A stretch of DNA of 64,000 nt, taken from NCBI RefSeq assembly GCF_014279835.1, contig NZ_CP047942.1, forward strand, positions 124,001-188,000, written 5' to 3'. This DNA comes from Synechococcus sp. MVIR-18-1 (GTDB taxonomy: Bacteria > Cyanobacteriota > Cyanobacteriia > PCC-6307 > Cyanobiaceae). Position 1 is the stretch's first letter; each line of letters starts with the position of its first letter. A program made the position numbers and the translations under genes. A model generated the notes under the pieces. It was not told where the DNA came from. It saw nothing but the letters and a program-made list of their open reading frames with translations, and did no database searches. This document shows positions 12,871-63,987 of the stretch, piece by piece.

Positions 12871-12871
12871 G

Positions 12872-13636: not shown

Positions 13637-13693
13637 ATGATGTGATCTTCGGCTGTTTGGCTGGCTCCTGGCAATTCCGCTGCTGCCAAGACC

Positions 13694-17410: not shown

Positions 17411-17435
17411 GAATTTTTTTATTTGAAATCATGCC

Positions 17436-44327: not shown

Positions 44328-44443
44328 TCACTCGTAGGGGGAGGCCAGTGGCACGTTTGGTCGGTAAAGGCGCAACGTCTCAGGCCGTTGGCAAAGCCCA
44401 TTGGATGCAGCGCTTCCGATCTGGAGCGGCTTGGATTGCTTGA
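44315..44443 (+). pseudogene. Phd/YefM-type antitoxin fragment
   Basis: The frame reads EDEVITRRGRPVARLVGKG, the central block of Phd/YefM antitoxins (usually EEVVITRRGKPVARLVP), with no N-terminal part and no start; it ends at a TGA 23 residues later. No RelE, Doc or PIN toxin follows directly. It is fused to the 3' end of the nucleotidyltransferase gene. Confidence 0.7.
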
Positions 44444-44506
44444 ACGCTGCTCCCCAGACTTTGAGCAGGCCTGTGAGTGGGTGAAGGACAGCCGTTCGTC
44501 TTAGTC

Positions 44507-44539
44507 GTGAATTACATATAAGCTGATTTGGTAATTCAC
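44507..44539. promoter_or_regulatory. Perfect inverted repeat, probable antitoxin operator
   Basis: GTGAATTAC and GTAATTCAC are perfect 9-base arms 15 bases apart, ending 4 bases before the AbrB-like antitoxin start. The position and symmetry fit autorepression by the antitoxin dimer. Confidence 0.7.
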
Positions 44540-44543
44540 TGGT

Positions 44544-44783
44544 TTGTCTTTGAGAAGCACGATCACCTCGCGAGGCCAGACCGTGATCCCGGCTGCGATT
44601 CGCGAGCGGTTTGGCTTAGGCCCGTCGCAACGCTTGGAGTGGCTTGTGGAAGAAGACGGTTCGATTCGAGTGGTGCCTGTGGCGGCATCTCCTGTGCAGG
44701 CCTTTCGCGGACAGAGCCGCAAGGGTGGAGCAACAGCGAGGCTGTTGGCGGATCGGGAGCTCGATCGAAACGCTGAACGGTGA
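44544..44783 (+). CDS. AbrB-like antitoxin (VapB type)
   Basis: The 79-residue protein has the AbrB swapped-hairpin domain STITSRGQTVIPAAIRERFGLG (about 4-25) and a C-terminal part with VQAFRGQSRKGGATARLLADRE. TTG 44544 (or TTG 44550) is the start; no ATG is available, as upstream lies the operator. It overlaps the PIN toxin start. A truncated copy lies at 40685. Confidence 0.88.
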   Translation: MSLRSTITSRGQTVIPAAIRERFGLGPSQRLEWLVEEDGSIRVVPVAASPVQAFRGQSRKGGATARLLADRELDRNAER

Positions 44784-45169
44784 TGCCCGCTTTTTGCCTC
44801 GACACCTCAGCAATCCTGACCTTGCGAGACGACGAACCCGGTGCCGAGCGCGTCGCCATGCTGCTGGATGGACCTGATCCCTGTTTCGCCTGTTTCATCA
44901 CGGGAATGGAGGTTTTCTACCGGGTTTGGAAAGACGAAGGAGAGGGGAGTGGGCGTCTTGCCTATGAACAGTTGCAATCGCTGCCAATCGCATGGGTTGA
45001 TCAGACAGAACCCTTATTGCTGGAAGCCTCCCGGATCAAGGCGTTGCATCGGCTTTCCGTTGCTGATGCCTGGATCGCCGCAGCGGCTCGTCTCAGCCGA
45101 GCAACATTGCTGCATAAGGATCCGGAATTTGAGGCCATCACTGAGTTGGATCAGAGTTGGTTGGCCTGA
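44783..45169 (+). CDS. PIN-domain toxin (VapC type)
   Basis: The 128-residue PIN RNase has the first acidic residue in FCLDTSAILTL, a second in TGMEVFYRV, and the LSVADAWIAAAARLSRATLLHKDPEF block with the remaining acidic residues. ATG 44783 (or GTG 44780) overlaps the antitoxin stop. Its stop at 45169 directly abuts the end of the convergent PIN gene at 45170. Confidence 0.9.
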   Translation: MPAFCLDTSAILTLRDDEPGAERVAMLLDGPDPCFACFITGMEVFYRVWKDEGEGSGRLAYEQLQSLPIAWVDQTEPLLLEASRIKALHRLSVADAWIAAAARLSRATLLHKDPEFEAITELDQSWLA

Positions 45170-45613
45170 TTACCCACCTGAGCGGAGTGAGAGTCGCTGC
45201 AGATCGCCGAAACGTTCGAAGTCGCGATCAAAGCTCACCAGGCGCCAACCGTTGCTGATGGCCAGCGCTGCAAGGTAGGCGTCGGTGCAAAGGCGGGCTG
45301 AGAGATCTCCCTCGCGCATCAGCTGGTGGAACACATCCCAGCCATCGCTGGCTGGGATCGCGAGGCTTACCCCTGGTTGTTGGCACAAGGATTGAAGGAT
45401 TGCAGAAGCCTCATGCGTGGTTTTAACGTCTGGGCCCATCAGCTTGGGTTGGCTCAACAGGCGCACCAGGCCCAAGGCCGTGACCGTGCAGAAGTGCACT
45501 TGCTCAGCAGCCTGTTGCTCCCAGTAGTTCAGGGCTGGCTGATGATGAAAGTGATCCGGGGTTGCCAGTGCCAGCCACACATTGAGATCCGGAAGATCTG
45601 CGTTGCTGCTCAT
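45170..45613 (-). CDS. PIN-domain toxin (VapC type)
   Basis: The 147-residue protein belongs to the longer PIN subgroup, with LPDLNVWLALATPDHFHHQPA at the N terminus and LCTDAYLAALAISNGWRLVSFDRDF near the end, giving D9 and the later acidic residues of the active site. It overlaps its RHH antitoxin by 4 nt. It should be an RNase, often directed at tRNA in this family; the target is unknown. Confidence 0.9.
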   Translation of the reverse strand: MSSNADLPDLNVWLALATPDHFHHQPALNYWEQQAAEQVHFCTVTALGLVRLLSQPKLMGPDVKTTHEASAILQSLCQQPGVSLAIPASDGWDVFHQLMREGDLSARLCTDAYLAALAISNGWRLVSFDRDFERFGDLQRLSLRSGG

Positions 45614-45852
45614 GGTTCGAGCAGGTCAAAGAGGTCTGCGTTGCTGGTGGTGCTGGAATCAAAAGCAAGGTGGCCTTCAACCTTTGGGAGCTGGCTAGCA
45701 GAGCGCGTTGTTGGTCTCGCGCTGTGCGTTGGTGCCATGAGCCCTTGTTCCACGTAGCTCTGCAAGAGCTGTTTGAGCGTGATCTGTTCACTGGCGGCCC
45801 TGGCTTTGAGCCGCGCAAAAAGAGGGTCCGGTAGCTCCAGGGTGGTCCGCAT
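45610..45852 (-). CDS. Ribbon-helix-helix antitoxin (VapB type)
   Basis: The 80-residue protein starts MRTTLELPDPLFARLKARAASEQ in outline, the RHH domain (about 1-45), and has a C-terminal part with LPKVEGHLAFDSS and NADLFDLLEP, the usual toxin-binding tail. A very strong palindrome lies 12 bases upstream. A broken 3' copy is found at 41559. Confidence 0.9.
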   Translation of the reverse strand: MRTTLELPDPLFARLKARAASEQITLKQLLQSYVEQGLMAPTHSARPTTRSASQLPKVEGHLAFDSSTTSNADLFDLLEP

Positions 45853-45863
45853 TGCCCTTTGAA

Positions 45864-45895
45864 GTCTTGATGCGCATATTAATGCGCATCAAGAC
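45864..45895. promoter_or_regulatory. Perfect 14-base palindrome, operator between divergent antitoxin genes
   Basis: The arms GTCTTGATGCGCAT and ATGCGCATCAAGAC are perfectly complementary and 4 bases (ATTA) apart; each arm contains a smaller TGCGCA palindrome. It lies 12 bases upstream of the RHH antitoxin on the minus strand and 51 bases before the ParD-like frame on the plus strand, so it could control both. An RHH antitoxin is the expected ligand. Confidence 0.8.
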
Positions 45896-45945
45896 GATTC
45901 GCGGCAGTCCTCATCCTGCGTGCCGGAAGCGTTAAAAGTCTTTTG

Positions 45946-46119
45946 GTGGCAAAGAAGTCATTAGTGTCTCTCCGCGAAGATCAGCATGCTTTTACCAAGG
46001 CGTTGGTGGCCGCTGGTCGCTTCCCATTAGGGAGTGCTGCCCTGCAGGTCTTGCTGCAGCAGCGCGCCAACGGGTCCTTTATCTCTGGCGATCAACTGCG
46101 AGCCAGATTGGCTGCGTAG
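45946..46119 (+). CDS. Short ParD-like antitoxin without a toxin
   Basis: The 57-residue frame reads AKKSLVSLREDQHAFTKALV and AAGRFPLGSAALQVLLQQR, close to the start of ParD antitoxins (SVSLxxxxxxFixxxVxSGRYxSxSEVxRxxL). Usual ParD proteins have about 80 residues; this one stops at TAG 46117 just after the DNA-binding part, and no ParE toxin follows. GTG 45946 is the probable start, without a clear ribosome site. It may be an orphan repressor-like antitoxin or a remnant. It was not found by length-based gene calling because it is so short. Confidence 0.5.
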   Translation: MAKKSLVSLREDQHAFTKALVAAGRFPLGSAALQVLLQQRANGSFISGDQLRARLAA

Positions 46120-46215
46120 CCCCGATGAGCGAGGCGTCGGTGGCGCTGGGGGAACGCCGCCCGACGAATCACTCTTGGTCGATATTGACTGGTCGCGAAC
46201 AGGAGGTGAGGTCTG

Positions 46216-46773
46216 ATGCGCGCCAAGTTGTTTCGCAATGGCCGCAGTCAGGCGGTGCGCTTGCCTGCTACCTGTCGTTTTGAAGGGACGGAAGTGGAGG
46301 TCAAGCGTGACCCTGAGACCGGCATTGTCAGCCTGCACCCCTTGCGGTCGAGTCCTCTTGAGTGGTTGCGCCAGCGTGCAGAATTGCTCGACAGTGACTC
46401 TGATGCCTCGGCCGGTTTTGGTGAGCTTTTCGAGGGGGGCGAGCAGGATGCTCCGGCTCAGCAAAGGGATTGGCCGAGAAGCAGCGCTTCATGCTCGACA
46501 CCAATGCCGTTCGGGTGTTGTTGGAGCGTCGTTCGCCCCAGCTCGACCAATGGTTTGCCGAGGATCGCTGCAGTGTTTCGGCGATCGTGTCCGCTGAGAT
46601 CCGCTTTGGTTTGGAGCGTCGTCGACTCCCTGAACAGCGAGCTGCGTTGGTACAAAACCTTCTCGAGGTTTTGCCGGTTGAAGCTTTTGATGCACCTGTC
46701 TCCAATGTCTATGGCACTTTGCGCTTTCGGTTGCAACAGATTGGGATCACCGTGGCAGCCATGGATCTATTGA
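46216..46773 (+). CDS. VapB-type antitoxin whose frame reads through the toxin gene
   Basis: The first 85 residues are a good VapB antitoxin: [20 protein letters not shown] is the AbrB-like domain of the VapB/Vag group, and the family end APAQQRDW is at about 78-85. In homologs a stop follows there. Here the frame stays open for another 100 codons out of frame through the PIN toxin gene, giving a 185-residue product whose second half resembles nothing. Either the stop codon has been lost by mutation or a sequence error is present. The working antitoxin is probably residues 1-85. ATG 46216 has a good AGGAGG site 10 bases upstream. Confidence 0.75.
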
Positions 46774-46868
46774 TTGCCTCCCACGCTTTGGCTTTGGAGC
46801 GCTCATTGATCAGTGATGACCAGGTGTTTGCTCAGCTGCCCGGCTTGCATCTCGTGCAGGCGAGTTGA
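46470..46868 (+). CDS. PIN-domain toxin (VapC type)
   Basis: The 132-residue protein has [15 protein letters not shown] (first Asp), [16 protein letters not shown] (second acidic position), and [22 protein letters not shown] (the rest), all typical of the VapC group that pairs with Vag/VapB. Start TTG 46470 or the in-frame ATG 46491 at FMLDTN. The ATG gives the standard MLDTN start and would be the better choice. It lies wholly within the unusual read-through frame of the antitoxin. It is followed by broken fragments of other modules. Confidence 0.85.
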
Positions 46869-48580: not shown

Positions 48581-49603
48581 GTGACTGTTCTCGTGACCGG
48601 CGCTGCCGGCTTTATCGGATTTCACCTGAGTCGCCGTTTGCTGGAGCAAGGAACCCCAGTAGTGGGGTTTGACAACGTCAACCCCTACTACGACCCCTCC
48701 TTGAAGCGAGCACGTATCGCTCAGCTGGAGGCCGTAGCTGCAGCAACGAGCAGCCCTTTCCAGCTGATCGAGGCTGACCTGGAAGATCGGGAAGCTGTGG
48801 AGGCCGCCTTCCAGCAGCACAACCCCCAGAAGGTGGTGAACTTGGCAGCCCAGGCGGGGGTGCGCTATTCGATCGAAAACCCAGCGGCCTACATCCAGAG
48901 CAACCTGGTGGGTTTTGGCCACATCCTTGAAGGTTGTCGCCACCACGGCGTAGAGCATCTGGTGTATGCGAGCAGCAGCTCTGTATATGGCGGTAACACG
49001 CGTATGCCCTTTTCGGAGCTCCACAGCGTGGATCACCCGGTGAGCCTCTATGCCGCTAGCAAGAAGGCAAATGAGCTAATGGCCCATACCTACAGCCATC
49101 TTTATGGCCTCGCGGCCACTGGCTTGCGCTTTTTCACTGTGTATGGCCCCTGGGGCCGGCCAGATATGGCGCTCTTTCTATTCACCAAGGCGATGCTGAG
49201 AGGTGAGCCGATTAATGTATTTAACAACGGCGAGATGGTGCGCGATTTCACTTATATCGACGACATTATCGAAAGCTTGGTTCGGTTACTCGAGAAGCCG
49301 GCGGCCCCAGATCTGGCCTTCGATCCTGCCAACCCCAACCCAGCCACCAGCTGGGCACCGAGCCGAGTATTCAACATCGGCAACAGCAACCCAACGCCGC
49401 TGATGGATTACATCGAAGCTGTGGAGAGTTCCCTAGGCATCAAAGCCGAGAAGCAATTCCTGCCAATGCAGCCGGGCGATGTGCCGGCAACTGCAGCTGA
49501 CACCTCAGCGCTGGAGGCCTGGGTTGATTTCAAGCCCAATACTCAAGTAAAAGATGGCGTTTCCCGGTTTGTCTCTTGGTATCGGGAGTTCTATGGCGAT
49601 TAA
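48581..49603 (+). CDS. UDP-glucuronate 4-epimerase-like SDR
   Basis: This extended SDR of 340 residues closely matches bacterial UDP-glucuronate/galacturonate 4-epimerases. It has VTGAAGFIGFHLSRRLLE (about 4-21), FDNVNPYYDPSLKRAR (the hallmark NxYYDxxLK), YASSSSVYGGNTRMPF, Y-A-A-S-K as YxxxK, and FFTVYGPWGRPDMALFLF. It would give UDP-galacturonate for an acidic glycan. Start GTG 48581. The codon use is GC-richer than in the genes after 57 kb. It is the first gene of the second sugar region and follows the gmd-fcl remnant. Confidence 0.9.
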   Translation: MTVLVTGAAGFIGFHLSRRLLEQGTPVVGFDNVNPYYDPSLKRARIAQLEAVAAATSSPFQLIEADLEDREAVEAAFQQHNPQKVVNLAAQAGVRYSIENPAAYIQSNLVGFGHILEGCRHHGVEHLVYASSSSVYGGNTRMPFSELHSVDHPVSLYAASKKANELMAHTYSHLYGLAATGLRFFTVYGPWGRPDMALFLFTKAMLRGEPINVFNNGEMVRDFTYIDDIIESLVRLLEKPAAPDLAFDPANPNPATSWAPSRVFNIGNSNPTPLMDYIEAVESSLGIKAEKQFLPMQPGDVPATAADTSALEAWVDFKPNTQVKDGVSRFVSWYREFYGD

Positions 49604-49687
49604 GTCAGTAGTCCCACCTCGCCCTTCACATTAAAAAGTGAAGTTTTCCAGCACACTTCCTAGCCCCCGTACCTCCGGTGGTTTTTT

Positions 49688-51085
49688 ATGAGCAGCACCA
49701 CCCAGTTCGTTCCAGACCCAATTGTTGCTCCTCTTCCATCCCTCGCTACCTGCACAGTGGCGATTATCGGCCTTGGCTATGTGGGGCTGCCACTTTCTGT
49801 TGCCTTCGCAACACCTGGTGCTTGCGTCCGTACCGGGACACCTCTAAGGCGCCGTGTAATCGGTTTCGACATCAATCAGCAGCGTCTGAGCGAGTTAAGC
49901 GCTGGTCATGACAGCACCCATGAGGTCAGCTCTGAGGAGCTGAAGGCAGCGACGATGCTCGAGTTCACATCTGATCCGGCCGAATTGGCCGTGGCAGATG
50001 TGTTTATCGTAACGGTGCCAACACCTATCGACACTGCCAAGAGGCCCGATCTCACCCCCTTGAAAAAGGCCAGTAATACTGTGGGCTTGGCCCTGAAGCA
50101 ACGCTTCGAACAGCAGCAGAGCCGTGGCGAAATATCTTGTTTACCACTGGTGATCTACGAGAGCACTGTCTATCCCGGCGCTACAGAAGAGGTCTGTGTG
50201 CCAATTCTGGAGAGGTCATCGGGTCTTATTAACAACAACGATTTCTTTTGCGGCTACAGCCCCGAAAGGATCAACCCTGGCGACACCGAGCACAGGCTTA
50301 CCACAATCACCAAGGTGACCAGCGGCAGCACCCCAGAGTCCGCATCCTGGGTGGATGGTTTCTACGGTTCAATTATCCAGGCCGGCACCCATCAGGGAGC
50401 AAGCATCAAAGTGGCGGAGGCTGCCAAAGTTATAGAAAATACTCAGCGTGATCTGAATATCGCCCTTGTAAATGAGCTGGCAATTATCTTTCGCGAGATG
50501 GGTATTGACACGCTCGATGTGCTGGAGGCAGCCGGCACAAAGTGGAATTTTTTGCCTTTTAGGCCCGGCTTGGTGGGCGGGCACTGTATCGGTGTGGATC
50601 CGTATTATTTGACTCACAAAGCTGAGCAGTTGGGTTACTACCCACAGGTGGTATTGGCGGGTCGGCGCATCAATGACGGCATGGGCCGTTGGCTGGTTGA
50701 ACAACTGGTTCTCGAGATGGCCCGAAGCGGCCAAGTCATCGCTGGTGCCCAAGTCTTGGTCTTGGGGCTGAGTTTCAAAGAAAACTGCCCAGACTTGCGT
50801 AACACCAGAGTGGTTGATGTGATTGACGCTATCCGGCGCTATGGAATGGAGCCTTTGGTTGTGGATCCGTGGGTCGATCCGGCGGAGGCCGAGCGTGAGT
50901 ATGGCCTGTCGGTGCTGGGCGAGATCCCCAGGGGTCGAAGCTGGAACTCCGTGGTTGCTGCGGTAGCCCACCGGGAATTTACTGCCCAGAGCGCCGAACA
51001 ATGGAGCCGGTTGCTGGAGCCGAACGGTGTGCTTGTAGATCTGAAATCAATAGTGCCTCGGGAGCTCGGAGCGATACGGCTCTAA
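49688..51085 (+). CDS. wbpA: UDP-N-acetyl-hexosamine 6-dehydrogenase (WbpA/WbpO/TviB type)
   Basis: This 465-residue NAD-dependent dehydrogenase carries out the two-step oxidation of UDP-GlcNAc to UDP-GlcNAcA. The N-terminal motif is IIGLGYVGLPLSVAFA (about 21-36), the catalytic lysine region is KVAEAAKVIENTQRDLNIA, and the catalytic Cys is in GGHCIGVDPYYLT. The C-terminal GLSFKENCPDLRNTRVVD is typical. With WbpD, WbpE and WbpB homologs directly downstream it is most likely the WbpA step; TviB-like use is the alternative. There is an N-terminal extension of about 20 residues. Confidence 0.9.
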   Translation: MSSTTQFVPDPIVAPLPSLATCTVAIIGLGYVGLPLSVAFATPGACVRTGTPLRRRVIGFDINQQRLSELSAGHDSTHEVSSEELKAATMLEFTSDPAELAVADVFIVTVPTPIDTAKRPDLTPLKKASNTVGLALKQRFEQQQSRGEISCLPLVIYESTVYPGATEEVCVPILERSSGLINNNDFFCGYSPERINPGDTEHRLTTITKVTSGSTPESASWVDGFYGSIIQAGTHQGASIKVAEAAKVIENTQRDLNIALVNELAIIFREMGIDTLDVLEAAGTKWNFLPFRPGLVGGHCIGVDPYYLTHKAEQLGYYPQVVLAGRRINDGMGRWLVEQLVLEMARSGQVIAGAQVLVLGLSFKENCPDLRNTRVVDVIDAIRRYGMEPLVVDPWVDPAEAEREYGLSVLGEIPRGRSWNSVVAAVAHREFTAQSAEQWSRLLEPNGVLVDLKSIVPRELGAIRL

Positions 51086-51127
51086 GCAGTCGATAATTTT
51101 TGACAACTTCTGATCTTGATTAGCTAA

Positions 51128-51736
51128 ATGAATTCTGAGACATATCTTGTTCACCCAACGGCTACTATTCATAATACAGCTCTAGTTGATGAAGGAGCCA
51201 AGATTGGTGCCGGCAGCAGGGTCTGGCATTGGGTTCACATCAGTTCAGGAGCTGTGATTGGTGATCGCTGCTCTTTCGGGCAGAACGTGTTTGTGGGCAA
51301 TCGCGTCAGGATAGGAAACAACGTCAAGATCCAGAACAATGTGTCGGTCTACGACAATGTGACCCTTGAAGACGATGTGTTCTGTGGGCCGAGCATGGTA
51401 TTTACCAATGTGTACAATCCTCGTTCAGCTATAAGCAGGAAGGATGATTACCGCAACACGGTTGTAGATCGGGGTGCAACTCTGGGCGCAAATTGTACGA
51501 TTGTTTGCGGAAATCGGATTGGGCACCATGCCTTTATTGGGGCTGGGTCCGTCGTGAACCGCGAAGTTAAGCCCTTTGCGCTGATGGTGGGGGTGCCGGC
51601 CACCCAAATTGGCTGGATGAGTGCCTACGGCGAGCGGGTCGATCTACCGCTTGAGGGCAGCGGGACCTGGACCTGCCCACATACCGGTGACACCTACCAA
51701 CTTCTCGATCACCATCTCACCCAAACACCCGCTTGA
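51128..51736 (+). CDS. wbpD: UDP-2-acetamido-3-amino-2,3-dideoxy-glucuronate N-acetyltransferase (WbpD type)
   Basis: This left-handed beta-helix acetyltransferase of 202 residues has clear hexapeptide repeats ([40 protein letters not shown]). The block [17 protein letters not shown] is specific to the WbpD/WlbB group. It would acetylate the 3-amino group set by WbpE. It starts 42 nt after wbpA and ends 3 nt before wbpE. The last 40 residues are a short C-terminal domain as in homologs. Confidence 0.9.
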
Positions 51737-51739
51737 GCG

Positions 51740-52894
51740 ATGCATTTCATTAATTTAGCAGAGCAGCAACGCCAGCAACTGCCGGATGGGCGAACCATCC
51801 GTGAAGCTGTAGATGCGCGAATTGCTGGGGTGCTCAACCATGGCCGTTACATCCTCGGCCCAGAGGTGGAGGAGCTGGAGCACACCCTGGCTGCCTATGT
51901 GGGTGCGAGGCACTGTATTGCTGTGGCCAGCGGTACCGATGCATTGTTGATCGCCCTTATGGCGTTGGGTGTGAAGGCTGGAGACGAGGTGATCACCACA
52001 CCATTTTCCTTCATCTCCACAGCAGAAACGATCGCCCTGTTGGGCGCCACACCGATATATGTGGATATCGATCCAGCCACTTACAACCTAGATTCCAACA
52101 AGCTGGAGCCCGCGATTAGCGAGCGCACCAAGGCGATCATTCCGGTGAGCTTGTATGGCCAGCCGGCTGATTTTGTTGCCATCAATGCGATTGCCGATCG
52201 GCATGGACTGCCGGTGATCGAAGACGGTGCACAGAGCTTTGGCAGCGAGCAGAACGGCCGGCGCAGTTGCGGGCTGAGCACCATCGGCACCACCAGCTTT
52301 TTCCCCTCCAAGCCTTTTGGTGGGTATGGCGATGGCGGTGCTTGCTTTACCAATGATGACGGCCTAGCTGATCGCATGAGGCGGGTGTCGCGCCACGGTC
52401 AAACAAAGCGTTATTTCCATACCGATATTGGCGTGAATGGCCGGATTGATACCCTCCAGGCTGCCATTTTGCTGGGCAAGTGGCCTAACTTTGCTCAAGA
52501 GGTTGAAGCGCGTGGCCGCATTGGCGCTTCATACAGCCAAAAGCTTCAGTCTGCCGGAATTGTCACTACTCCCCAGTTGAAAGCTGGCAATACGAGCGTC
52601 TACGCCCAATACACAGTGCAGGTGGATCAGCGTGCTGAAGTACAGGCTTCGCTCAAAGAAATGGGGATTCCTACTTCTGTGCACTATCCCACCCTCCTCA
52701 GCCAACAACCAGCTCTGCGTTGTGTGAATGGTCGTGCCACCAGTCAATGTTTGCAAACGCCCCTAGCTCAGGCAGCTAGTGAGCGAGTTTTAAGCCTGCC
52801 CATGCATCCCTGGCTTAGCGATGACGATCAAGGTCGTGTAGTGAATGCCCTGATGAATGCACTACAACAATCTTCTTTTGCTTCCGCTGCATGA
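51740..52894 (+). CDS. wbpE: PLP aminotransferase (WbpE type, DegT/DnrJ/EryC1 family)
   Basis: It transfers an amino group from glutamate to C3 of the keto-sugar produced by WbpB. The 384 residues include TPFSFISTAETI, the PLP aspartate in VIEDGAQSFGS, and the Schiff-base lysine in FFPSKPFGGYGDGGA. Length and motifs match WbpE/WlbC. The reaction gives 2-oxoglutarate as co-product, which WbpB-type enzymes are known to use for NAD recycling. A 32-codon frame starts at its stop codon (see next entry). Confidence 0.92.
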   Translation: MHFINLAEQQRQQLPDGRTIREAVDARIAGVLNHGRYILGPEVEELEHTLAAYVGARHCIAVASGTDALLIALMALGVKAGDEVITTPFSFISTAETIALLGATPIYVDIDPATYNLDSNKLEPAISERTKAIIPVSLYGQPADFVAINAIADRHGLPVIEDGAQSFGSEQNGRRSCGLSTIGTTSFFPSKPFGGYGDGGACFTNDDGLADRMRRVSRHGQTKRYFHTDIGVNGRIDTLQAAILLGKWPNFAQEVEARGRIGASYSQKLQSAGIVTTPQLKAGNTSVYAQYTVQVDQRAEVQASLKEMGIPTSVHYPTLLSQQPALRCVNGRATSQCLQTPLAQAASERVLSLPMHPWLSDDDQGRVVNALMNALQQSSFASAA

Positions 52895-52992
52895 TGCAAA
52901 TGTTTCCTAAGGACTCTTACTCTTTACAGACTCTTTTGCTAGAAAAATTGCACAGCCGCCAAGCCTCTATTGAATGCCTTCGAAAGATATGA
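52894..52992 (+). CDS. Possible 32-residue small protein
   Basis: ATG 52894 overlaps the wbpE stop by one base (TGATG), the same coupling used elsewhere in this region, and the frame runs 32 codons. No motif is recognised, and the remaining 70 bases to the wbpB start hold no other gene. It may be a real small protein, a remnant, or chance. Confidence 0.25.
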   Translation: MQMFPKDSYSLQTLLLEKLHSRQASIECLRKI

Positions 52993-53062
52993 TAAATACT
53001 TCGTGATTTTTTGCTAATGATTTCAGCTTTAATCCACGCTATCTATTGTTTAGGAGTCGATT

Positions 53063-54178
53063 ATGCTCCACTCTATTGCTCCAATTAATGGGCGTCGAAT
53101 ACGCATTGCTGTTGTCGGTTGTGGTCGTATTAGCCGCAATCACATCAAAGCCATCGCTATCCATCATGAGCGTGCAGAACTTGTGGCTATTTGTGATACT
53201 CAGCCAGAGCTTCTCAGCCACGCGCAACAGTACATAGATGAGGTTTCTGAAGAGAACTCTGGAACTCGATTTAATCCAGTTCAATTCACTAGTTATACCG
53301 ACCTTCTTTCCGCAACCGGCGCATCCGGTACTACTCCTGTCGACTTGGTGGTGCTGGCTACTCCAAGCGGTCTGCATTCAGAGCAGGTGATTGCAGCAGC
53401 TAAGGCAGGGCTGCATGTGTGCACGGAAAAGCCAATGGCCACTCGCTGGGCTGATGGCGTTGCAATGGTGAAGGCTTGTGATGAAGCTGGAGTCCGCCTT
53501 TTTGTTGTGAAGCAGAACCGCTTTAACAGCACCTTGCAACTGGTTAAACGACAGCTTCAGGCTGGGCGCTTTGGGCAGATGGCGATGGTGGCGGTGAATG
53601 TGTTTTGGCAGCGGCCACAAAGTTATTACGATCAGGCTCGCTGGCGCGGTACATGGGAATTCGATGGCGGTGCACTTATGAATCAGGCCAGCCATTATGT
53701 GGATTTGCTTAATTGGTTGGTCGGGCCAGTAGAGAGTGTTAGCGCTTCTATGGCTACGTTAGGTCGCACCATTGAAGTGGAAGACACAGCAGCCTTGCAG
53801 CTGCGTTGGCGTAATGGTGCACTAGGAACGATGGCAGTGACCATGCTGACTTATCCCAAAAATCTGGAGGGCTCGATCACTTTGCTGGGTGAAAAAGGTA
53901 CCGTGAAAATTGGTGGGCCGGCGGTAAACCAGATTGAGCATTGGGCCTTTGCCGATGAAAGTCCAGACGATGCTCTTATTGAGCAAGCCAGTTTTGAGAC
54001 GACAAGCGTGTATGGCTTTGGCCATCCGCTTTACTATTCAAATGTGATTGGTGCGTTGCAGGGCAAAGAAATGGCCTTATGCGATGGTCGCGAGGGTTTA
54101 CGTAGCCTTGAATTGCTAGTTGGTGCTTACCGATCGGCGAGGGACGGTCGCACGGTGCACTTGCCTTTGGAATACTGA
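53063..54178 (+). CDS. wbpB: UDP-GlcNAcA 3-dehydrogenase (WbpB type, Gfo/Idh family)
   Basis: This NAD-dependent oxidoreductase forms the 3-keto sugar on which WbpE acts. It has VVGCGRISRNHIKAI (about 15-29), the catalytic CTEKPMA block with its lysine, and the Gfo/Idh C-terminal domain with GGALMNQASHYVDLLNWLVG. The length of 371 is above the usual 315-350. WbpB/WlbA enzymes keep NAD tightly bound and recycle it with 2-oxoglutarate, making 2-hydroxyglutarate; the next gene encodes an enzyme for just that by-product. An AT-rich spacer of 168 nt separates it from wbpE. Confidence 0.88.
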   Translation: MLHSIAPINGRRIRIAVVGCGRISRNHIKAIAIHHERAELVAICDTQPELLSHAQQYIDEVSEENSGTRFNPVQFTSYTDLLSATGASGTTPVDLVVLATPSGLHSEQVIAAAKAGLHVCTEKPMATRWADGVAMVKACDEAGVRLFVVKQNRFNSTLQLVKRQLQAGRFGQMAMVAVNVFWQRPQSYYDQARWRGTWEFDGGALMNQASHYVDLLNWLVGPVESVSASMATLGRTIEVEDTAALQLRWRNGALGTMAVTMLTYPKNLEGSITLLGEKGTVKIGGPAVNQIEHWAFADESPDDALIEQASFETTSVYGFGHPLYYSNVIGALQGKEMALCDGREGLRSLELLVGAYRSARDGRTVHLPLEY

Positions 54179-54183
54179 ACAAT

Positions 54184-55413
54184 ATGTCTGAGATCACCAC
54201 AGACATCGTTGTCTTGGGCGGAGGCATGGTCGGTATGGCGTTGGCTTACCAGCTCAGCGAGCGTGATTCCGATCTCACAATCACAGTGATCGATAAGGAA
54301 CCCGAGATCGGTCGGCATAGTTCTGGTCGGAACAGCGGTGTTTTGCACGCAGGCATTTACTACCCTCCTGGCACCCTCAAAGCAAAAGTATGTGTGCAGG
54401 GGGCTCGTCGTTTGCGTGCTTGGTGTGAAAATGAGGGACTGCCTCTACTAGCTTGTGGAAAAGTCATTGCGCCTCAGACTTCTGAGCTAGACGGGCAATT
54501 GGAGTTGCTTTTGGAGCGTGGCCGAGCCAATGGAGCCGAGGTGCGGCTTATTAATCATCAAGAGTTTAAGCAGCGAGTGCCGGATGGCCGCACGGCCAGT
54601 GGCCGTGCCCTTTGGAGCCCGGGTACCTGTGTGGTGAAGCCCAAGCTTGTGATGCAACGCCTTGAGCAACGCTTGCGGGAGCGTGGTGTGAGCTTCGCTT
54701 TGGGTGCCACCGTTTGTGGTGTGTCTCCTGACAAACGGCAACTCAATCTGAAGCATTCTGGAGAAAGCAGCACCCTGTCCTACGGACATTTGTTCAATGC
54801 CACGGGGTTGCAGGCCGATCGGATCGCCAAGGTGTTTGGACTGGGTCATGACTGCACCCTTCTGCCGTTCAAAGGCCTTTACTGGCAACTAGATCCAAGA
54901 GCTCCCTTCAACTTCACCACGAACTTGTATCCAGTGCCCGATCTCAATGTGCCGTTTCTTGGGGTGCATGTCACCCCAAGCCCTGACGGCAGCATCAGCC
55001 TTGGGCCAACAGCCATTCCTGCCTTGGGGCGTGAGAATTACAGAGGGTTTGATGGAATTGAACCATTGATGGCGCTTGAATTTTTGGGTGACCTGGCAAG
55101 CCAGTGGTGGCGCAATGCTGGTGGATTTCGCCAATACGCCAGAGAGCAGGCTCTGCATGGGCTCAAGCCCTTGTTTTTAAAGGCAGCTCAGGCATTGGTG
55201 CCAGGCCTACGCAGTGATCATCTCATCCCAAGCCAGAAGGTGGGAATCCGTGCCCAGCTCTACGATCGTAGATCAGGCACATTGGTTCAGGATTTCCGTC
55301 TGGAGCATGGACCCGCAAGCACCCATGTGCTCAACGCAATCTCTCCTGCGTTTACCGCCAGTTTTGCTCTGGCGGATCTGATCATCAAAGAATCCTCCCT
55401 CGCTTCTCACTAA
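54184..55413 (+). CDS. lhgO: L-2-hydroxyglutarate oxidase/dehydrogenase
   Basis: This FAD enzyme of 409 residues oxidises L-2-hydroxyglutarate to 2-oxoglutarate, passing electrons to oxygen or the quinone pool. It starts with the dinucleotide motif VVLGGGMVGMALAYQLSE (9-26) and has the family-specific RHSSGRNSGVLHAGIYYPPG, where the last part is characteristic of LhgO. It lies 5 nt after wbpB, and its stop directly precedes the next start (no gap). The position suggests that it removes or recycles the 2-hydroxyglutarate formed by WbpB, a repair or recycling role within sugar synthesis. Confidence 0.9.
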   Translation: MSEITTDIVVLGGGMVGMALAYQLSERDSDLTITVIDKEPEIGRHSSGRNSGVLHAGIYYPPGTLKAKVCVQGARRLRAWCENEGLPLLACGKVIAPQTSELDGQLELLLERGRANGAEVRLINHQEFKQRVPDGRTASGRALWSPGTCVVKPKLVMQRLEQRLRERGVSFALGATVCGVSPDKRQLNLKHSGESSTLSYGHLFNATGLQADRIAKVFGLGHDCTLLPFKGLYWQLDPRAPFNFTTNLYPVPDLNVPFLGVHVTPSPDGSISLGPTAIPALGRENYRGFDGIEPLMALEFLGDLASQWWRNAGGFRQYAREQALHGLKPLFLKAAQALVPGLRSDHLIPSQKVGIRAQLYDRRSGTLVQDFRLEHGPASTHVLNAISPAFTASFALADLIIKESSLASH

Positions 55414-56415
55414 ATGGACATTCGCGGCAAAAAGCTTCTCATGATCGGTGGATCCGGTCTAATTGGATCACACACTGTTGATTCGCTTTTGCGCGAAGAC
55501 GTGGGCGAGGTGATCGTCTACGACAACTTTGTACGTGGGCGCATGGAGAATCTGGCTGCAGTCCGTCAGGATCCTCGCTTCAAGGTTTATGACATCGGGG
55601 GCGACATTCTGCAGACCGACATTCTGGAAGCCGCAATGAAGGGTGTCGATGGTGTTTTCCATTTTGCAGCGCTCTGGCTATTGCAGTGCCACGATTATCC
55701 GCGTTCGGCCTTTGATGTGAACGTGCGCGGCACTTTCAATGTTATGGAAGCCTGCGTAAAAGCAGGAGTGAATCGGTTGGTCTATTCGTCATCGGCATCT
55801 GTTTATGGCGATGCTCTGAGTGAACCAATGACTGAAGACCATCCCTTTAATAATAAGAACTTCTACGGCGCTACCAAGATTTGCGGAGAAGCGATGTTGC
55901 GATCATTTCATCATCGTTATGGATTGGACTACGTGGGTCTGCGCTACATGAATGTGTATGGACCAAGACAGGATTACCAGGGGGCCTACATCGCTGTGAT
56001 TATGAAGATGTTGGATGCCATTGATCGTGGCGAAAGTCCAACCATTCTTGGAGATGGTTCTGAAGCATTTGATTTTGTTGCTGTCGAAGATTGTGCTCAG
56101 GCCAATGTGTGCGCGATGAAAGCGAATGCAACAGATTCCTTTTACAATGTAGGAACTGGTATTCGAACTTCGCTTAAAGAATTAGCTGAAATACTTATTG
56201 AACTCACGGGTTCAAAAAATCCTATTAATTATGCACCGCGCAGTCAGGCAACTTTGGTGCGTAATCGCATTGGCTGCCCTGAGAAAGCCTCAAAAGAGAT
56301 CAGCTACACCGCGGCCATTGAACTGCGTGAGGGTTTGCAACGTTTGATCGATTGGCGAGCTTCTCACAAAGCTGAAGTTGAAGCCCGACGTGACGCACAG
56401 CGGGTGGTGGTATGA
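55414..56415 (+). CDS. Nucleotide-sugar 4-epimerase/dehydratase-like SDR
   Basis: This extended SDR of 333 residues has MIGGSGLIGSHTVDSLL (about 10-26), the YSSSASVYGDAL serine site, YGATK as YxxxK, and RYMNVYGPRQDYQGAY. It is close in style to UDP-sugar 4-epimerases found in O-antigen loci. The aminotransferase that follows overlaps by 4 nt, so a keto-sugar product for amination is likely; a 4-keto or 4-epimer intermediate cannot be told apart. It starts at the base after the lhgO stop. Confidence 0.82.
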   Translation: MDIRGKKLLMIGGSGLIGSHTVDSLLREDVGEVIVYDNFVRGRMENLAAVRQDPRFKVYDIGGDILQTDILEAAMKGVDGVFHFAALWLLQCHDYPRSAFDVNVRGTFNVMEACVKAGVNRLVYSSSASVYGDALSEPMTEDHPFNNKNFYGATKICGEAMLRSFHHRYGLDYVGLRYMNVYGPRQDYQGAYIAVIMKMLDAIDRGESPTILGDGSEAFDFVAVEDCAQANVCAMKANATDSFYNVGTGIRTSLKELAEILIELTGSKNPINYAPRSQATLVRNRIGCPEKASKEISYTAAIELREGLQRLIDWRASHKAEVEARRDAQRVVV

Positions 56416-57617
56416 CGACCCATCCATCAATGAAAGTGCCTATAGCCCGTACAGGGCTTACAGAGGATGAAATCCAGAGTGTGCTGGTGCCACTGCGCAG
56501 CGGTTGGCTGGTTCAGGGCCCCAAGGTGCGTGAGTTTGAACAGGCTTGGAGTTCATTCACGGGTGCTGACCACAGTATTGCAGTGACGAGCTGCACATCA
56601 GCCCTGCATATGTCTCTGGCCGCTTTGGGTTTTGGGCCCGGTGATGAGGCGATTGTTCCCGCCTTCACATGGATCTCTACAGCCAATGTGGTGGAACATT
56701 TGGGCGGTCGAGTTGTATTTGCCGATATCGATTTATCGACTTTTAATATTGATCCTGCAGGGATTGAATCGTTGATTACACCGCGCACGAAAGCGATACT
56801 GCCAGTTCATCTGTTTGGATTATCTGCTGATATGCACGTAATTAACGAAATCGCTCAAAAAAATAATCTTTGGGTGGTTGAAGACGCTGCCTGTGGTTTT
56901 GGCTCAACTTTTCATGGTCGGCACGTTGGAACTCTTGGTAATACCGGTTGCTTCAGTTTTCACCCCCGAAAGGCGATAACGACTGGTGAAGGCGGGATGA
57001 TTACCACTAATGATTCTCTGTTGGCTGAGAGTCTGCGTCGTCTTCGCGACCATGGTGCAGCTATGAGTGATCTGCAACGGCACTTGGGACCAAAGCCTTA
57101 TCTACTGGCAGACCACCCTGACGCCGGCTATAACCAGCGAATGACCGATTTGCAGGCAGCATTGGGTGTTGCCCAGATGCACCGTGCTGACGCAATTGTG
57201 GCTGAGCGACGTCAACTTGCTGAACGCTACGATTTAGCTTTCTCCGAGTTGAACTGGCTACAGACTCCGAAGGTGTCATTAGGTTGCAGTCATGGCTACC
57301 AGAGCTACCCGTGTTTGTTCGAACCTGAACTACTGAGCACAGCATTGAAGACTTCTGATCAAGCTTTGCTGGGGCAAATCAAGGAAAGGCGTAATGCCTG
57401 GATGGAAACATTGCAGCAAAAAGGAATATCTACTAGGCCAGCTACTCATGCTGTGCATATGTTGAGCTTTTATCGCGACAAGTACCATTTGAATCCTGAA
57501 CAATTTCCAGCGGCTCAAGCTGCAAACGATTGCAGTGTTTCATTGCCTCTTTTCCATGGCATGAGTAGTGAGGAGCAGACTTACGTAATTGATATTGTTC
57601 GAGGCAGTAAAGCCTGA
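56412..57617 (+). CDS. Second DegT/DnrJ/EryC1 aminotransferase
   Basis: This PLP sugar aminotransferase of 401 residues has PAFTWISTANVVEHLGG, the PLP aspartate in VVEDAACGFGS, and the Schiff-base lysine in FSFHPRKAITTGEGGMI. The FHPRKxxTTGEGG form is typical of enzymes making 4-amino sugars (perosamine-type), different from the WbpE above (FFPSKPFGGYGDGGA). It overlaps the SDR before by 4 nt and the amidotransferase after by one base (TGATG). GC content begins to fall near its end. Confidence 0.88.
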   Translation: MTTHPSMKVPIARTGLTEDEIQSVLVPLRSGWLVQGPKVREFEQAWSSFTGADHSIAVTSCTSALHMSLAALGFGPGDEAIVPAFTWISTANVVEHLGGRVVFADIDLSTFNIDPAGIESLITPRTKAILPVHLFGLSADMHVINEIAQKNNLWVVEDAACGFGSTFHGRHVGTLGNTGCFSFHPRKAITTGEGGMITTNDSLLAESLRRLRDHGAAMSDLQRHLGPKPYLLADHPDAGYNQRMTDLQAALGVAQMHRADAIVAERRQLAERYDLAFSELNWLQTPKVSLGCSHGYQSYPCLFEPELLSTALKTSDQALLGQIKERRNAWMETLQQKGISTRPATHAVHMLSFYRDKYHLNPEQFPAAQAANDCSVSLPLFHGMSSEEQTYVIDIVRGSKA

Positions 57618-59494
57618 TGTGTGGCATCACTGGGCTGATCAATCTCAATGGAGATTCGGTTTCTCCGGTCATTCTCAAAAAGATGACCGATGCCATTGTT
57701 CATCGCGGCCCTGATGGGGAAGGCCATTGGATTGATGAAAGTGTTGGACTCGGTCACCGGCGCCTCGCCATCATCGACTTGAGCCCTGCAGGACATCAGC
57801 CGATGATCAGTTCTGATCATCGCTATGTGCTTAGTTATAATGGCGAGATTTACAACTATCGCGAACTTCGCGCTGAATTAGAAGCTGAGGGCTTTTGGTT
57901 TCGCAGTCAGACAGATAGTGAAGTCGTTCTGAATGCTTTGGCTCACTGGGGCCATGATGCATTGCTGAAGTTCAATGGTATGTTTGCTCTTGCACTGTGG
58001 GACCGAAAAGAAAGCAGTCTTCTACTGGCTCGAGATAGATACGGTGTAAAGCCTCTTTATTATTCTTTTCAATCTGGGGTATTTGCTTTTGCTTCAGAGC
58101 AGAAAGCGATTACTGCACATCCAGATTTTTCATCGAGACTAAATAAATCAGCGCTTTTAGAATATTTTACTTTTCAGAATATATTCACTGATCAAACATT
58201 TTTGAAGAATATATATATGCTGCCCGCAGGTCATCATCTTACCTTCAATATGGAGGGTCATACTGAACCCAAAATAGAAAGATATTGGGATTATCGATTT
58301 CGCGAGCCTCAAACAACTGCTACTCGTCAAGAATATATTGAAGAACTTGATCGCTTATTTAGGCAGGCCGTTAATCGTCAGCTTGTCAGCGATGTTGAAC
58401 TCGGCGCTTATTTATCAGGCGGTATGGATTCTGGTTCAATTACGGCGATAGCAGCTCAAAGTTTTCCTAATCTCAAAACTTTCACTTGCGGTTTTGATTT
58501 GAGCTCTGCTTCTGGAATTGAGCTCGGTTTTGATGAACGCTCGAAAGCAGAGCTTATGTCAGCTAGGTTCAAAACTGAACACTACGAAATGGTATTAAAA
58601 GCAGGTGATATGGAGCGCTCTTTATCATTAGTATCAAAACATCTTGAGGAACCTAGGGTTGGTCAAAGCTATCCTAATTTTTATGCTGCAAAGTTAACGA
58701 GTAAATTTGTTAAAGTAGTCTTATCTGGTAGTGGAGGTGATGAACTTTTTGGTGGTTACCCTTGGCGCTATTATCGAGCTGCAAACGCACAAAGCTTTGA
58801 GGAGTACATTGATCAGTATTACTTTTATTGGCAAAGATTAGTTGATAATAATACACTGAAGAAAATGTTTTCGCCTATTTGGGGTGACGTAGGGCACATA
58901 TGGACTCGAGATATCTTTCGCGATGTTTTCAAAACTCACGATAATCAATTAGATCGACCGGAAGATTATATTAACCATTCTCTTTATTTTGAGGCAAAAA
59001 CATTTTTGCATGGTCTTCTTACTGTTGAAGACAAACTCTCAATGTCTCAAAGTTTGGAAAACAGAGTGCCATTTATGGATAATGATTTAGTTGAATTTGC
59101 TATGAACTGTCCTGTGAGCTTGAAGTTAAACAACTTGGCGGAAGTGATTAAAATCAATGAAAATGACCCAGGCGACAAGCAAAAGCAATTTTTTCAAAAA
59201 ACCAATGATGGGAAGCAAATTCTGCGTGATATGATGAAAAAATACATACCCGATGATATAGCACGTGCTACTAAACAAGGATTTTCTTCTCCTGACGCAA
59301 GTTGGTTTAAGGGAGAAAGTATTGACTTCGTACAAAGGACTTTGCTCCATGGCAACGCTCGCATTTATGATGTTCTTGATAGATCCACTGTAAGAACTCT
59401 TGTTGAACAACATCTTGATGGGAAGCAAAATCGACGTTTACTAATATGGTCACTTTTAAATGTAGAAACTCTGTTGAGTGATATAAACTTGTGA
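57617..59494 (+). CDS. Asparagine synthase-like glutamine amidotransferase
   Basis: The 625-residue protein has an N-terminal class II glutaminase (MCGITGLINL, Cys2 catalytic; YNGEIYNYRELR) and a C-terminal synthetase domain with the ATP PP-loop YLSGGMDSGSI and SGSGGDELFGGYPWR. AsnB-like proteins in O-antigen loci are thought to convert sugar uronic acids to uronamides; that fits the diacetamido-uronic acid made by the Wbp enzymes upstream. True asparagine synthesis is the alternative. The start is fixed by Cys2 and overlaps the aminotransferase stop. From here on the base composition is AT-rich. Confidence 0.88.
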   Translation: MCGITGLINLNGDSVSPVILKKMTDAIVHRGPDGEGHWIDESVGLGHRRLAIIDLSPAGHQPMISSDHRYVLSYNGEIYNYRELRAELEAEGFWFRSQTDSEVVLNALAHWGHDALLKFNGMFALALWDRKESSLLLARDRYGVKPLYYSFQSGVFAFASEQKAITAHPDFSSRLNKSALLEYFTFQNIFTDQTFLKNIYMLPAGHHLTFNMEGHTEPKIERYWDYRFREPQTTATRQEYIEELDRLFRQAVNRQLVSDVELGAYLSGGMDSGSITAIAAQSFPNLKTFTCGFDLSSASGIELGFDERSKAELMSARFKTEHYEMVLKAGDMERSLSLVSKHLEEPRVGQSYPNFYAAKLTSKFVKVVLSGSGGDELFGGYPWRYYRAANAQSFEEYIDQYYFYWQRLVDNNTLKKMFSPIWGDVGHIWTRDIFRDVFKTHDNQLDRPEDYINHSLYFEAKTFLHGLLTVEDKLSMSQSLENRVPFMDNDLVEFAMNCPVSLKLNNLAEVIKINENDPGDKQKQFFQKTNDGKQILRDMMKKYIPDDIARATKQGFSSPDASWFKGESIDFVQRTLLHGNARIYDVLDRSTVRTLVEQHLDGKQNRRLLIWSLLNVETLLSDINL

Positions 59495-62123: not shown

Positions 62124-63241
62124 TGAACTCAAGCTCTTTGTTGATTCCTAATTTGCCATTCTGTATTGGAGCTTCTTTAACATCCAACAATCCTTCCGGA
62201 TTGCCTAGCACATATCCTTTTCAATTAGAGTTAAATAGATCTCTTTGCAGATTAGAACAGTCTGTAAATAAAGAATTAGAATCTTTGCTAGAAAAGGCCT
62301 ATCTTGTTGGAAATGAGATGGGAACGCCCTCGGATGATACTAATCTTGGTAGACCGTATGTTGACGATTTCATATCCTTTGTTAGCAAATTTTCCTCCCA
62401 TTCTGGATCTTTACTTGAGATCGGTGCTGGTACTGGATTTTTAAGTAAACGATTAAGTGAAGAGGGTTGGACTGTAACTAGTATTGAGCCTGGAACGGGA
62501 TATCAGCCCCAATGGATCTCTAATGATGTAGATGTTATTAATGACTTTTTTCCATCAGCGGAAATTTCAGGTCAATTTGATGTAATTGTGTTCTATACAG
62601 TTCTAGAACATATTAAAGATACAAAGTCATTTCTTACTGATGTAAAAAATTATTTGAAGCCTAATGGTTATATATTTCTTGCAGTACCAGATTGCACACT
62701 TGAAATTTCTAATTGTGATGCAAGTATTTTGTTGCATGAACATTTTCACTATTTCACCAAGCACTCATTGCTAAATACTTTAATTGAATCGGGTTTAACA
62801 GGAAAAGTCTATCCTTCTGAGTATGGCCGTTGTCTATATGCAGTTGCCCAAATTTCTTTAGAGGTGCAAATCCCACAAGTATCTAATATACATTTGGTCG
62901 AATACTCAGACTATATTAGTGGCATACTCAAAGCGCAATCTAAGCTTTCGAGTATGTTTAACAATTGGCTTAATAAAGGACAGCTAGGGATATTTTGCCC
63001 AAGTCGTTTGTTGAATTTAATGTCACCAGATAATGATTTCTTATTTTACGATGATTCTCCAGCCTTGCATGGCAAATTTTATCCACCATTCTCTTCACAA
63101 GTACGAAGTCGCGCAGATTTATTCATTGATAAACCTGATAAGATTTTAATCGCGTCAAGAACTTTTGGTTCTAAAATAAAAACGGATCTTTTGAATTCCG
63201 GCTTGAATTCAGATATTATTTTGATAAGTGATTTGTTGTGA
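62123..63241 (+). CDS. Class I SAM-dependent methyltransferase (sugar C- or O-methylation candidate)
   Basis: The 372-residue protein has an N-terminal part of 80 residues, then the SAM motif LLEIGAGTGFLSKRLSEEGW (about 95-114), the acidic SIEPG strand, and FDVIVFYTVLEHIKD. The C-terminal 130 residues form a second domain with FYDDSPALHGKF, as in the C-methyltransferases that act on dTDP- or CDP-sugars (the NDP-sugar C-methyltransferase group has a similar C-terminal part). The usual Cys-rich zinc site of that group at the N terminus is not seen, so the comparison is loose. Overlaps the next gene by 4 nt. Confidence 0.78.
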   Translation: MNSSSLLIPNLPFCIGASLTSNNPSGLPSTYPFQLELNRSLCRLEQSVNKELESLLEKAYLVGNEMGTPSDDTNLGRPYVDDFISFVSKFSSHSGSLLEIGAGTGFLSKRLSEEGWTVTSIEPGTGYQPQWISNDVDVINDFFPSAEISGQFDVIVFYTVLEHIKDTKSFLTDVKNYLKPNGYIFLAVPDCTLEISNCDASILLHEHFHYFTKHSLLNTLIESGLTGKVYPSEYGRCLYAVAQISLEVQIPQVSNIHLVEYSDYISGILKAQSKLSSMFNNWLNKGQLGIFCPSRLLNLMSPDNDFLFYDDSPALHGKFYPPFSSQVRSRADLFIDKPDKILIASRTFGSKIKTDLLNSGLNSDIILISDLL

Positions 63242-63987
63242 ACAAGCAAATATCAAAACATAATAATGTAACTCGATGGTCGACAATTTCTAGATGTCTT
63301 CCGCAATTTCATTTTGAAGATGTGTCTTCTTTAACCTTCGACATCGATTGGGCCTGTGATGAGATATTAGCTGACTGCATTAACTTGGTTGAAAGTTATA
63401 ACATCCCTGCCACATGGTTTGTTACTCATGACACACCTTTATTGTCTAGGTTGCGTGATAATAATAATTTTGAACTTGGTATTCATCCAAATTTTAATAA
63501 TTTGCTCAACGGTCCTTGTAATACACAATCTATCGACAAAATTATCGATGACCTTTTGAATCTTGTCCCTGAAGCGGTATCAGTACGCAGCCATTCTATG
63601 GTTCAAAGTTCCAGACTGCAGGATGTTTTTTCAAAGAAAGGACTTATATTTGATTGTAATCATTTTATTCCTGAGCAATCTAAAATTGTATTAAAGCCTT
63701 GGTCTCTCTGGAATGGCTTGATAAAAGTTCCCCATTTTTGGGAGGATGATGTTTTTTGTTTATATCCTAAGGGCACTGAGCCAGATCTTTTGTTATCGCG
63801 AGAAGGGCTTAAAGTATTTGATTTTCATCCAATTCATGTTTTTCTAAATACAGAATCTATCGAACGCTATGAAAATTCGAGGAATGTACATCATGATGCT
63901 TCCCAATTAATTGATTATCGTTTTCCGGGACACGGTGTTCGTAATCAGCTTTTAAACTTAATTAAAACCCATGACAATGATAAATAA
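63238..63987 (+). CDS. Polysaccharide deacetylase-like protein
   Basis: The 249-residue protein has a NodB-like metal site start SLTFDIDWACDEI (TFDxD), the IHPN segment at about 80 where deacetylases have the two metal histidines (usually HTHxH-like), and VRSHSM. It resembles the WbmS-type proteins of O-antigen loci. Only part of the usual His pattern can be recognised, so activity is uncertain. Start GTG 63238, overlapping the methyltransferase stop by 4 nt. It would remove an acetyl group from a sugar nucleotide or lipid-linked sugar. Confidence 0.75.
   Translation: MNKQISKHNNVTRWSTISRCLPQFHFEDVSSLTFDIDWACDEILADCINLVESYNIPATWFVTHDTPLLSRLRDNNNFELGIHPNFNNLLNGPCNTQSIDKIIDDLLNLVPEAVSVRSHSMVQSSRLQDVFSKKGLIFDCNHFIPEQSKIVLKPWSLWNGLIKVPHFWEDDVFCLYPKGTEPDLLLSREGLKVFDFHPIHVFLNTESIERYENSRNVHHDASQLIDYRFPGHGVRNQLLNLIKTHDNDK

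Follow-up and report, generated by a model that had tools for sequence, protein, structure and literature searches.

Why would a cyanobacterium encode a predicted L-2-hydroxyglutarate oxidase in the middle of a set of genes for sugar biosynthesis? The question is raised by a stretch of 64,000 nucleotides of Synechococcus sp. MVIR-18-1 (positions 124,001 to 188,000 of contig NZ_CP047942.1; hereafter the window, in whose coordinates positions are given). There, the gene for LhgO lies in a glycan operon, between wbpB, which encodes a UDP-sugar 3-dehydrogenase, and a gene for a short-chain dehydrogenase/reductase (SDR). A preliminary description of this DNA had proposed WbpB as the source of the 2-hydroxyglutarate (2-HG) that LhgO would recycle. 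We find that LhgO in glycan islands tracks SDRs, not WbpB. The partner of LhgO is more likely the SDR encoded after it than the WbpB encoded before it, and we see roughly even chances that LhgO recycles L-2-HG made by this downstream SDR within the same glycan pathway. The genes and codons concerned are the following:

49688-51085, forward strand: wbpA-like UDP-sugar 6-dehydrogenase (TIGR03026, 332 bits, above the cut-off of 189.8)
51128-51736, forward strand: wbpD-like hexapeptide-repeat acetyltransferase (PF00132, 2e-18; the name WbpD comes from context)
51740-52894, forward strand: wbpE-like DegT aminotransferase (PF01041, 377.7 bits; the name WbpE comes from context)
53063-54178, forward strand: wbpB/wlbA, Gfo/Idh/MocA UDP-sugar 3-dehydrogenase of the B. 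pertussis/C. violaceum WlbA class (371 amino acids; 3q2k, 3q2i)
54184-55413, forward strand: LhgO, predicted FAD-dependent L-2-hydroxyglutarate oxidase/dehydrogenase (409 amino acids; NF008726 above cut-off)
54346-54348, forward strand: codon of LhgO His55, equivalent to the catalytic-base His92 of Drosophila L2HGDH
54967-54969, forward strand: codon of LhgO His262, equivalent to the C1-carboxylate ligand His302 of Drosophila L2HGDH
55249-55251, forward strand: codon of LhgO Arg356, equivalent to the C5-carboxylate ligand Arg393 of Drosophila L2HGDH
55414-56415, forward strand: the window SDR, proposed to produce L-2-HG; it belongs to the NAD-dependent epimerase/dehydratase family (PF01370, 1.1e-50)
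56412-57617, forward strand: second DegT aminotransferase (PF01041, 4.8e-112), overlapping the window SDR by 4 nt
57617-59494, forward strand: AsnB-like amidotransferase (PF00733, 2e-88; PF13522, 2.8e-47)

The coordinates of the open reading frames (ORFs) agree with the gene order given previously: LhgO starts 5 nt after the stop of wbpB, with wbpA, wbpD and wbpE upstream and a longer spacer of 168 nt between wbpE and wbpB. They also reveal a feature absent from the preliminary description, namely that the ATG of the window SDR directly follows the stop codon of LhgO, with 0 nt between them. Scans of 52600-56500 gave no excess of regulatory signals, with 5 promoter-like sequences (3.4 +/- 1.9 in shuffles) and 2 terminator-like ones (4.0 +/- 2.3 in shuffles).

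LhgO narrowly passes the NCBIfam equivalog model for L-2-hydroxyglutarate oxidase (NF008726; 305.4 bits for a cut-off of 299) and contains a DAO domain (PF01266, 8.7e-52). Its closest solved relative in a search of the PDB is 8w75, 'FI05204p' (3e-54), which we take to be the Drosophila L2HGDH described next. The residues of Drosophila L2HGDH that contact 2-oxoglutarate are S88, H92, Y289, L299, H302 and R393, according to the accessible part of PMC10726252. Alignments place S51, H55, Y249, L259, H262 and R356 of LhgO at these positions, with six of six substrate or catalytic residues kept. The same residues, which cover the contacts to the C1 carboxylate, the C2 oxygen and the C5 carboxylate, are invariant in 96 of the 96 LhgO rows that we aligned. 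Since 80 of these rows were fetched with peptide patterns spanning S51/H55 or L259/H262, four of the six residues are partly pre-selected in them; Y249 and R356 escape this selection throughout, as do all six in the remaining 16 rows. The named rows nearest to the window LhgO are from Prochlorococcus. The genome has no second LhgO, the gene in the window being the sole match at E<=1e-3, and its one match to PF02913 (FAD-oxidase_C), presumably a domain of D-2-HG-type oxidases, lies outside the window. From family and residues we infer that LhgO acts on L-2-HG in this operon, and it is probably an L-2-HG oxidase that serves the glycan island.

The evidence for an SDR as partner comes mostly from other genomes. 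In Campylobacter jejuni, the SDR Cj1427 has a tightly held NADH that is reoxidised by 2-oxoglutarate, yielding L-2-HG (PMC10680097, as far as accessible). We analyzed the SDRs of four LhgO clusters, those of the cyanobacterial genomes G023 and G084 and of the loci L085 (Nitrospira) and L080 (Paenibacillus), and the best PDB match is 6vo6/6vo8 for all four. The E-values are, respectively, 4e-34, 6.5e-24, 3.8e-24 and 7.6e-28, versus 6e-25, 9e-18, 7e-15 and 1e-17 for the next-best entries. We take 6vo6/6vo8 to be C. jejuni Cj1427; with this identity assumed, the four proteins, whose nearest solved relative it is, are Cj1427-like SDRs.

We then used the SDR of G084 as a query (E<=1e-70) together with LhgO (E<=1e-45) in 386 genomes of the phylum, scoring the best 4-5 candidates per genome, so that copy numbers are lower bounds. 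Cj1427-like SDRs were found in 54 copies in 49 genomes. LhgO is no more than 10 kb away from 49 copies and no more than 5 kb from 46; for 34 copies it is encoded on the same strand at a distance of up to 1 kb. Of these 49 genomes, 46 also have LhgO, versus 34 of the 337 others. Fisher tests give p=6e-34 for the association of LhgO with Cj1427-like SDRs and p=0.23 for that with WbpB, values that are not true probabilities because the genomes are related and family f30 dominates. Five copies lack a nearby LhgO: the one in G176, which sits 551 nt from a contig end, the second copy in G211, two in G243 and one in G410. From the side of LhgO (83 copies), 48 have a Cj1427-like SDR within 10 kb, and 5 are near WbpB and/or an SDR of the window type. 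As a comparison, another glycan SDR, which shares 43-45% identity with the window SDR, has LhgO within about 10 kb in none of its 14 copies, while all 13 genomes that carry it hold LhgO elsewhere, often on another contig. In the tree of the 96 LhgO rows, the label 'Cj1427-like SDR nearby' (8 named loci) cannot be explained with fewer than 6 gains or losses on starred branches. One genome, G424, has both candidate partners: its LhgO (32% identical to that of the window) directly adjoins an SDR whose best match is the Cj1427-like reference (31%), while wbpB is found at a distance of 7.5 kb and on the opposite strand.

WbpB shows no comparable pattern. The best solved relatives of the window WbpB are 3q2k (2e-145) and 3q2i (3e-140), which we take to be WlbA of B. 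pertussis and C. violaceum, both reported as sequential enzymes. The match to 3o9z, a PDB entry named wbpB and presumably the ping-pong enzyme of T. thermophilus, reaches only 2e-9. With these identities assumed, the window WbpB groups with WlbA and falls outside the ping-pong sequence class. The accessible part of PMC10622841 describes WbpB of P. aeruginosa as a ping-pong enzyme that uses 2-oxoglutarate, and the enzymes of B. pertussis and C. violaceum as sequential, without 2-oxoglutarate ping-pong, so that no 2-HG is expected from the WlbA class. The isomer is also at odds with the claim that LhgO uses 2-HG from WbpB. The product in P. aeruginosa is D-2-HG, and deletion of PA0317, the D-2-HG dehydrogenase, results in less O-antigen (PMC8651671, in part). 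Drosophila L2HGDH is reported as inactive on D-2-HG in the accessible text of PMC10726252, and an L-specific enzyme thus seems ill-suited to WbpB, if the homologues are a guide. Both results that the preliminary description named as refuting its reading, a WbpB that does not use 2-oxoglutarate and a product in the D form, are thus known from homologues.

The count of wbpB-lhgO neighbours, proposed as a check on the WbpB reading, points the same way. Among the 386 genomes, 10 have WbpB. Only 2 of the 10 genes have LhgO on the same strand at a distance of up to 1 kb, while 3 have it within 5 kb and 4 within 10 kb. In a set of 99 relatives, with G000 counted among them, LhgO was detected in 21 (E<=1e-40), WbpB of the window class in 7 (E<=1e-60), and both in 3, namely G000, G011 and G016. 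An ABC-transporter gene separates the two in G016; wbpB is directly 5' of LhgO in G011 and also in Prochlorococcus L033. LhgO had no match in the WbpB genomes G003, G013, G036 and G056 at E<=1e-30 (G003 and G036 are about 80% complete), nor in G253, G283, G341, G412 and G441 at E<=1e-45. The window-type SDR is likewise absent from about 19.5 kb around wbpB in G003, G013, G036, G056, G253, G341 and G441. A broader sample comprises 80 named loci with LhgO, the top matches out of 592 relatives; 4 of them have a Gfo/Idh/MocA gene no more than 5 genes from LhgO, and in 1 this gene is immediately upstream. The 3-dehydrogenase of G065 and L035 is a Gfo/Idh/MocA protein whose aligned part is only 23-26% identical to that of the window WbpB. 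In the wbp-type clusters of L137, L138, L139, L028 and L035, the position of wbpB is filled by a Gfo/Idh/MocA class other than that of the window WbpB (314-342 amino acids, with 23-27% identity to it in the aligned part); its nearest solved relatives are 3c1a and 7bvj (searched for L137 and L028).

Does the window SDR belong with the Cj1427-like enzymes? LhgO is directly 5' of a window-type SDR in 8 of the 8 clusters that we read with both genes (G000, G011, G016, G065, G294, L033, L035 and L037; G141 is apparently the same genome as L035). The window LhgO falls in a clade of 15 rows (97/90), where 8 rows have a window-type SDR, 6 a Cj1427-like SDR and one, L036, neither. Like the window SDR, 13 of the 14 copies of its 43-45% identical relative are followed by a DegT gene, an arrangement that suggests an SDR that produces a keto sugar. 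The window SDR may be a dehydrogenase that uses 2-oxoglutarate rather than an epimerase, since the overlapping DegT enzyme at 56412, a second transaminase, requires a keto sugar and the eight genes scanned at 48581-57617 gave no match above cut-off to a 4,6-dehydratase model. From this context we propose it as the source of L-2-HG.

Several observations weigh against this assignment. The window SDR has as best solved relatives 6dnt, 10ke, 4zrm (UDP-glucose 4-epimerase), WbgU and WbpP, the last two of which we take to be 4-epimerases as well. It is nearer to the 4-epimerases 4zrm, WbgU and WbpP than to Cj1427: 6vo6/6vo8 is not its nearest solved relative, 6vo6 is not among the best 60 of its 172 PDB matches, and the protein could itself be a 4-epimerase. 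LhgO is missing from the cluster in 5 of the 9 orthologues of the window SDR in the phylum sample (at least 58% identity); G113, G411 and G417 have LhgO elsewhere in the genome, and G114 and G351 have none in the whole genome at E<=1e-30. LhgO is therefore at best facultative for SDRs of this type, and adjacency alone is a weak argument because SDRs are common in glycan islands. The wider pairing has its own exceptions. For 30 of the 83 LhgO copies in the phylum, the searches recognised no Cj1427-like SDR, WbpB or window-type SDR within 10 kb, although these include heptose-type clusters whose SDR was missed by the query, and no clear Cj1427-like SDR was seen near LhgO in the stretch read of the heptose-type clusters of G292 and G390. 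Moreover, the phylum rows are not independent, since family f30 dominates the counts, and the label 'Cj1427-like' mostly reflects the best BLAST match in a small reference set of our own, with a check against the PDB for 2 of the 8 named loci.

The general idea of the preliminary description, that LhgO recycles a by-product within a sugar operon, fits the data, and it is the choice of WbpB as the source that does not. The reading in which WbpB regenerates NAD with 2-oxoglutarate and LhgO returns the resulting 2-HG draws on the 5-nt spacing, on the same order of the two genes in G011 and L033, and on the recycling of D-2-HG for WbpB reported in P. aeruginosa (PMC8651671, in part). We consider it very improbable in view of the sequential class, the D isomer made by ping-pong WbpB, the low neighbour counts, the nine WbpB genomes with no LhgO match and the transporter gene that splits the pair in G016; WbpB is rejected as the L-2-HG source on class, isomer and neighbour counts. 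LhgO might instead repair stray L-2-HG, for example from malate dehydrogenase, and be in the island by chance. LhgO genes outside glycan clusters are indeed common, as no searched sugar family was recognised within 5 genes in 57 of the 80 named loci. Of all 80 loci, 19 have an SDR within 5 genes and 10 have one as direct same-strand neighbour (loci near contig ends offer fewer genes to count). Yet within the genus of the window LhgO is an island gene. Only 4 of 31 genomes have it at E<=1e-40, G000 included, all four inside a glycan cluster, and the absence of a match in the other 27 led us to reject housekeeping repair in this genus (7 of the 31 genomes are less than 90% complete). Chance placement of a repair enzyme thus seems quite improbable.

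The LhgO-like protein could also have a new substrate, such as a sugar acid or another 2-hydroxy acid, and act directly on a glycan precursor. The variety of glycan clusters with LhgO (heptose-type, NTP-transferase/SDR-type and wbp-type) speaks for this option, but the invariance of the six 2-oxoglutarate ligand residues, with the partial selection described above, makes it unlikely in our view. The heptose-type clusters combine genes for a HAD phosphatase, LhgO, an NTP-transferase, GmhA-like and HldE-like proteins and two SDRs. They occur in close relatives of family f1 (G023, G040, G041, G050, G051, G328, G345 and G347, and in less complete form G292, G330 and G390), and no WbpB was recognised in them. 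Several cyanobacterial LhgOs that are more distant are preceded by a gene of NTP-transferase size and followed by an SDR gene (Pfam checked for one).

If LhgO recycles L-2-HG from the downstream SDR, the pathway would run as follows. A nucleotide-sugar dehydrogenase of the SDR family that keeps its NAD(H) firmly bound would use 2-oxoglutarate as oxidant and release L-2-HG, as reported for Cj1427. In the window, the SDR at 55414-56415 would thereby make the keto sugar used by the DegT enzyme at 56412-57617. LhgO would oxidise L-2-HG back to 2-oxoglutarate, its electrons presumably passing via FAD to an acceptor such as quinone or oxygen, and 2-oxoglutarate would cycle between the SDR, LhgO and the transaminase. 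A broader version, in which LhgO is a dedicated and repeatedly recruited helper of 2-oxoglutarate-using nucleotide-sugar dehydrogenases across phyla, in a module whose transaminase supplies further 2-oxoglutarate, and the window SDR represents a second, epimerase-derived group with the same chemistry, is more tentative, and we rate it somewhat below an even chance.

In E. coli, LhgO works with CsiD in the catabolism of glutarate, and the same is reportedly true in P. putida (PMC5974017). The window LhgO shares with these enzymes the protein family and the presumed reaction, but it is encoded in a glycan operon, and no csiD was found among the LhgO neighbours scanned. A close functional parallel is the D-2-HG dehydrogenase of P. 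aeruginosa PAO1, a flavoprotein that returns to 2-oxoglutarate the 2-HG made by a nucleotide-sugar dehydrogenase, WbpB (PMC8651671, in part). The recycling of 2-HG in a sugar pathway is thus already published for the D isomer. The PAO1 system differs in the isomer and in the class of WbpB, and its dehydrogenase belongs to another flavoprotein family, with a PCMH-type FAD domain (PMC10726252, in part). The GDP-heptose C4-dehydrogenase Cj1427 is the parallel on the SDR side, given the four LhgO-cluster SDRs nearest to its presumed structures. It differs in that the accessible part of PMC10680097 mentions no LhgO partner, and the window SDR bears no particular resemblance to Cj1427. Among the papers listed by our searches of the open-licence PMC literature, we found no report of LhgO with nucleotide-sugar clusters or of a link between the L isomer and SDRs. 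We regard the general link between LhgO and 2-oxoglutarate-using SDRs as the most useful result. If it is true, many genes annotated as L-2-hydroxyglutarate oxidase in glycan islands are parts of the pathway, the presence of LhgO flags adjoining SDRs annotated as epimerases as 2-oxoglutarate-consuming dehydrogenases, and bacterial L-2-HG has a source and a purpose.

A few minor observations concern the rest of the island and other loci. The wbpA-like ORF at 49688-51085 scores 507.9 bits against NF011729, under the cut-off of 592. At 63238-63987, the window encodes a polysaccharide deacetylase of the WbmS-like family (PF22537, 4.4e-74), a name familiar from the O-antigen locus of Bordetella, where 4-epimerases act. 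The region upstream of the glycan genes (43830-46868) contains a nucleotidyltransferase ORF, three PIN-domain ORFs (44780-45169 and 46470-46868 on the forward strand, 45170-45613 on the reverse strand), and an ORF at 46216 with a weak MazE-type antitoxin match (25.5 bits for a cut-off of 24.7). In locus L029 (G033, 8405-9651), LhgO is broken up between two reading frames and looks like a decaying copy; our reference set revealed no glycan gene in its vicinity. Beside the heptose-type LhgO cluster of L197 (G292, 12017-19501), there is an open frame of at least 2495 amino acids that includes an HldE-like stretch. Finally, L193 (ON073792.1, 19458-28576), deposited as Aphanizomenon phage Yong-DA, encodes an LhgO homologue of 34% identity beside a DegT aminotransferase, in a setting of Wzc/Wzy and sugar genes. 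This record resembles a mobile island or a glycan cluster of a bacterium more than it does a typical phage.

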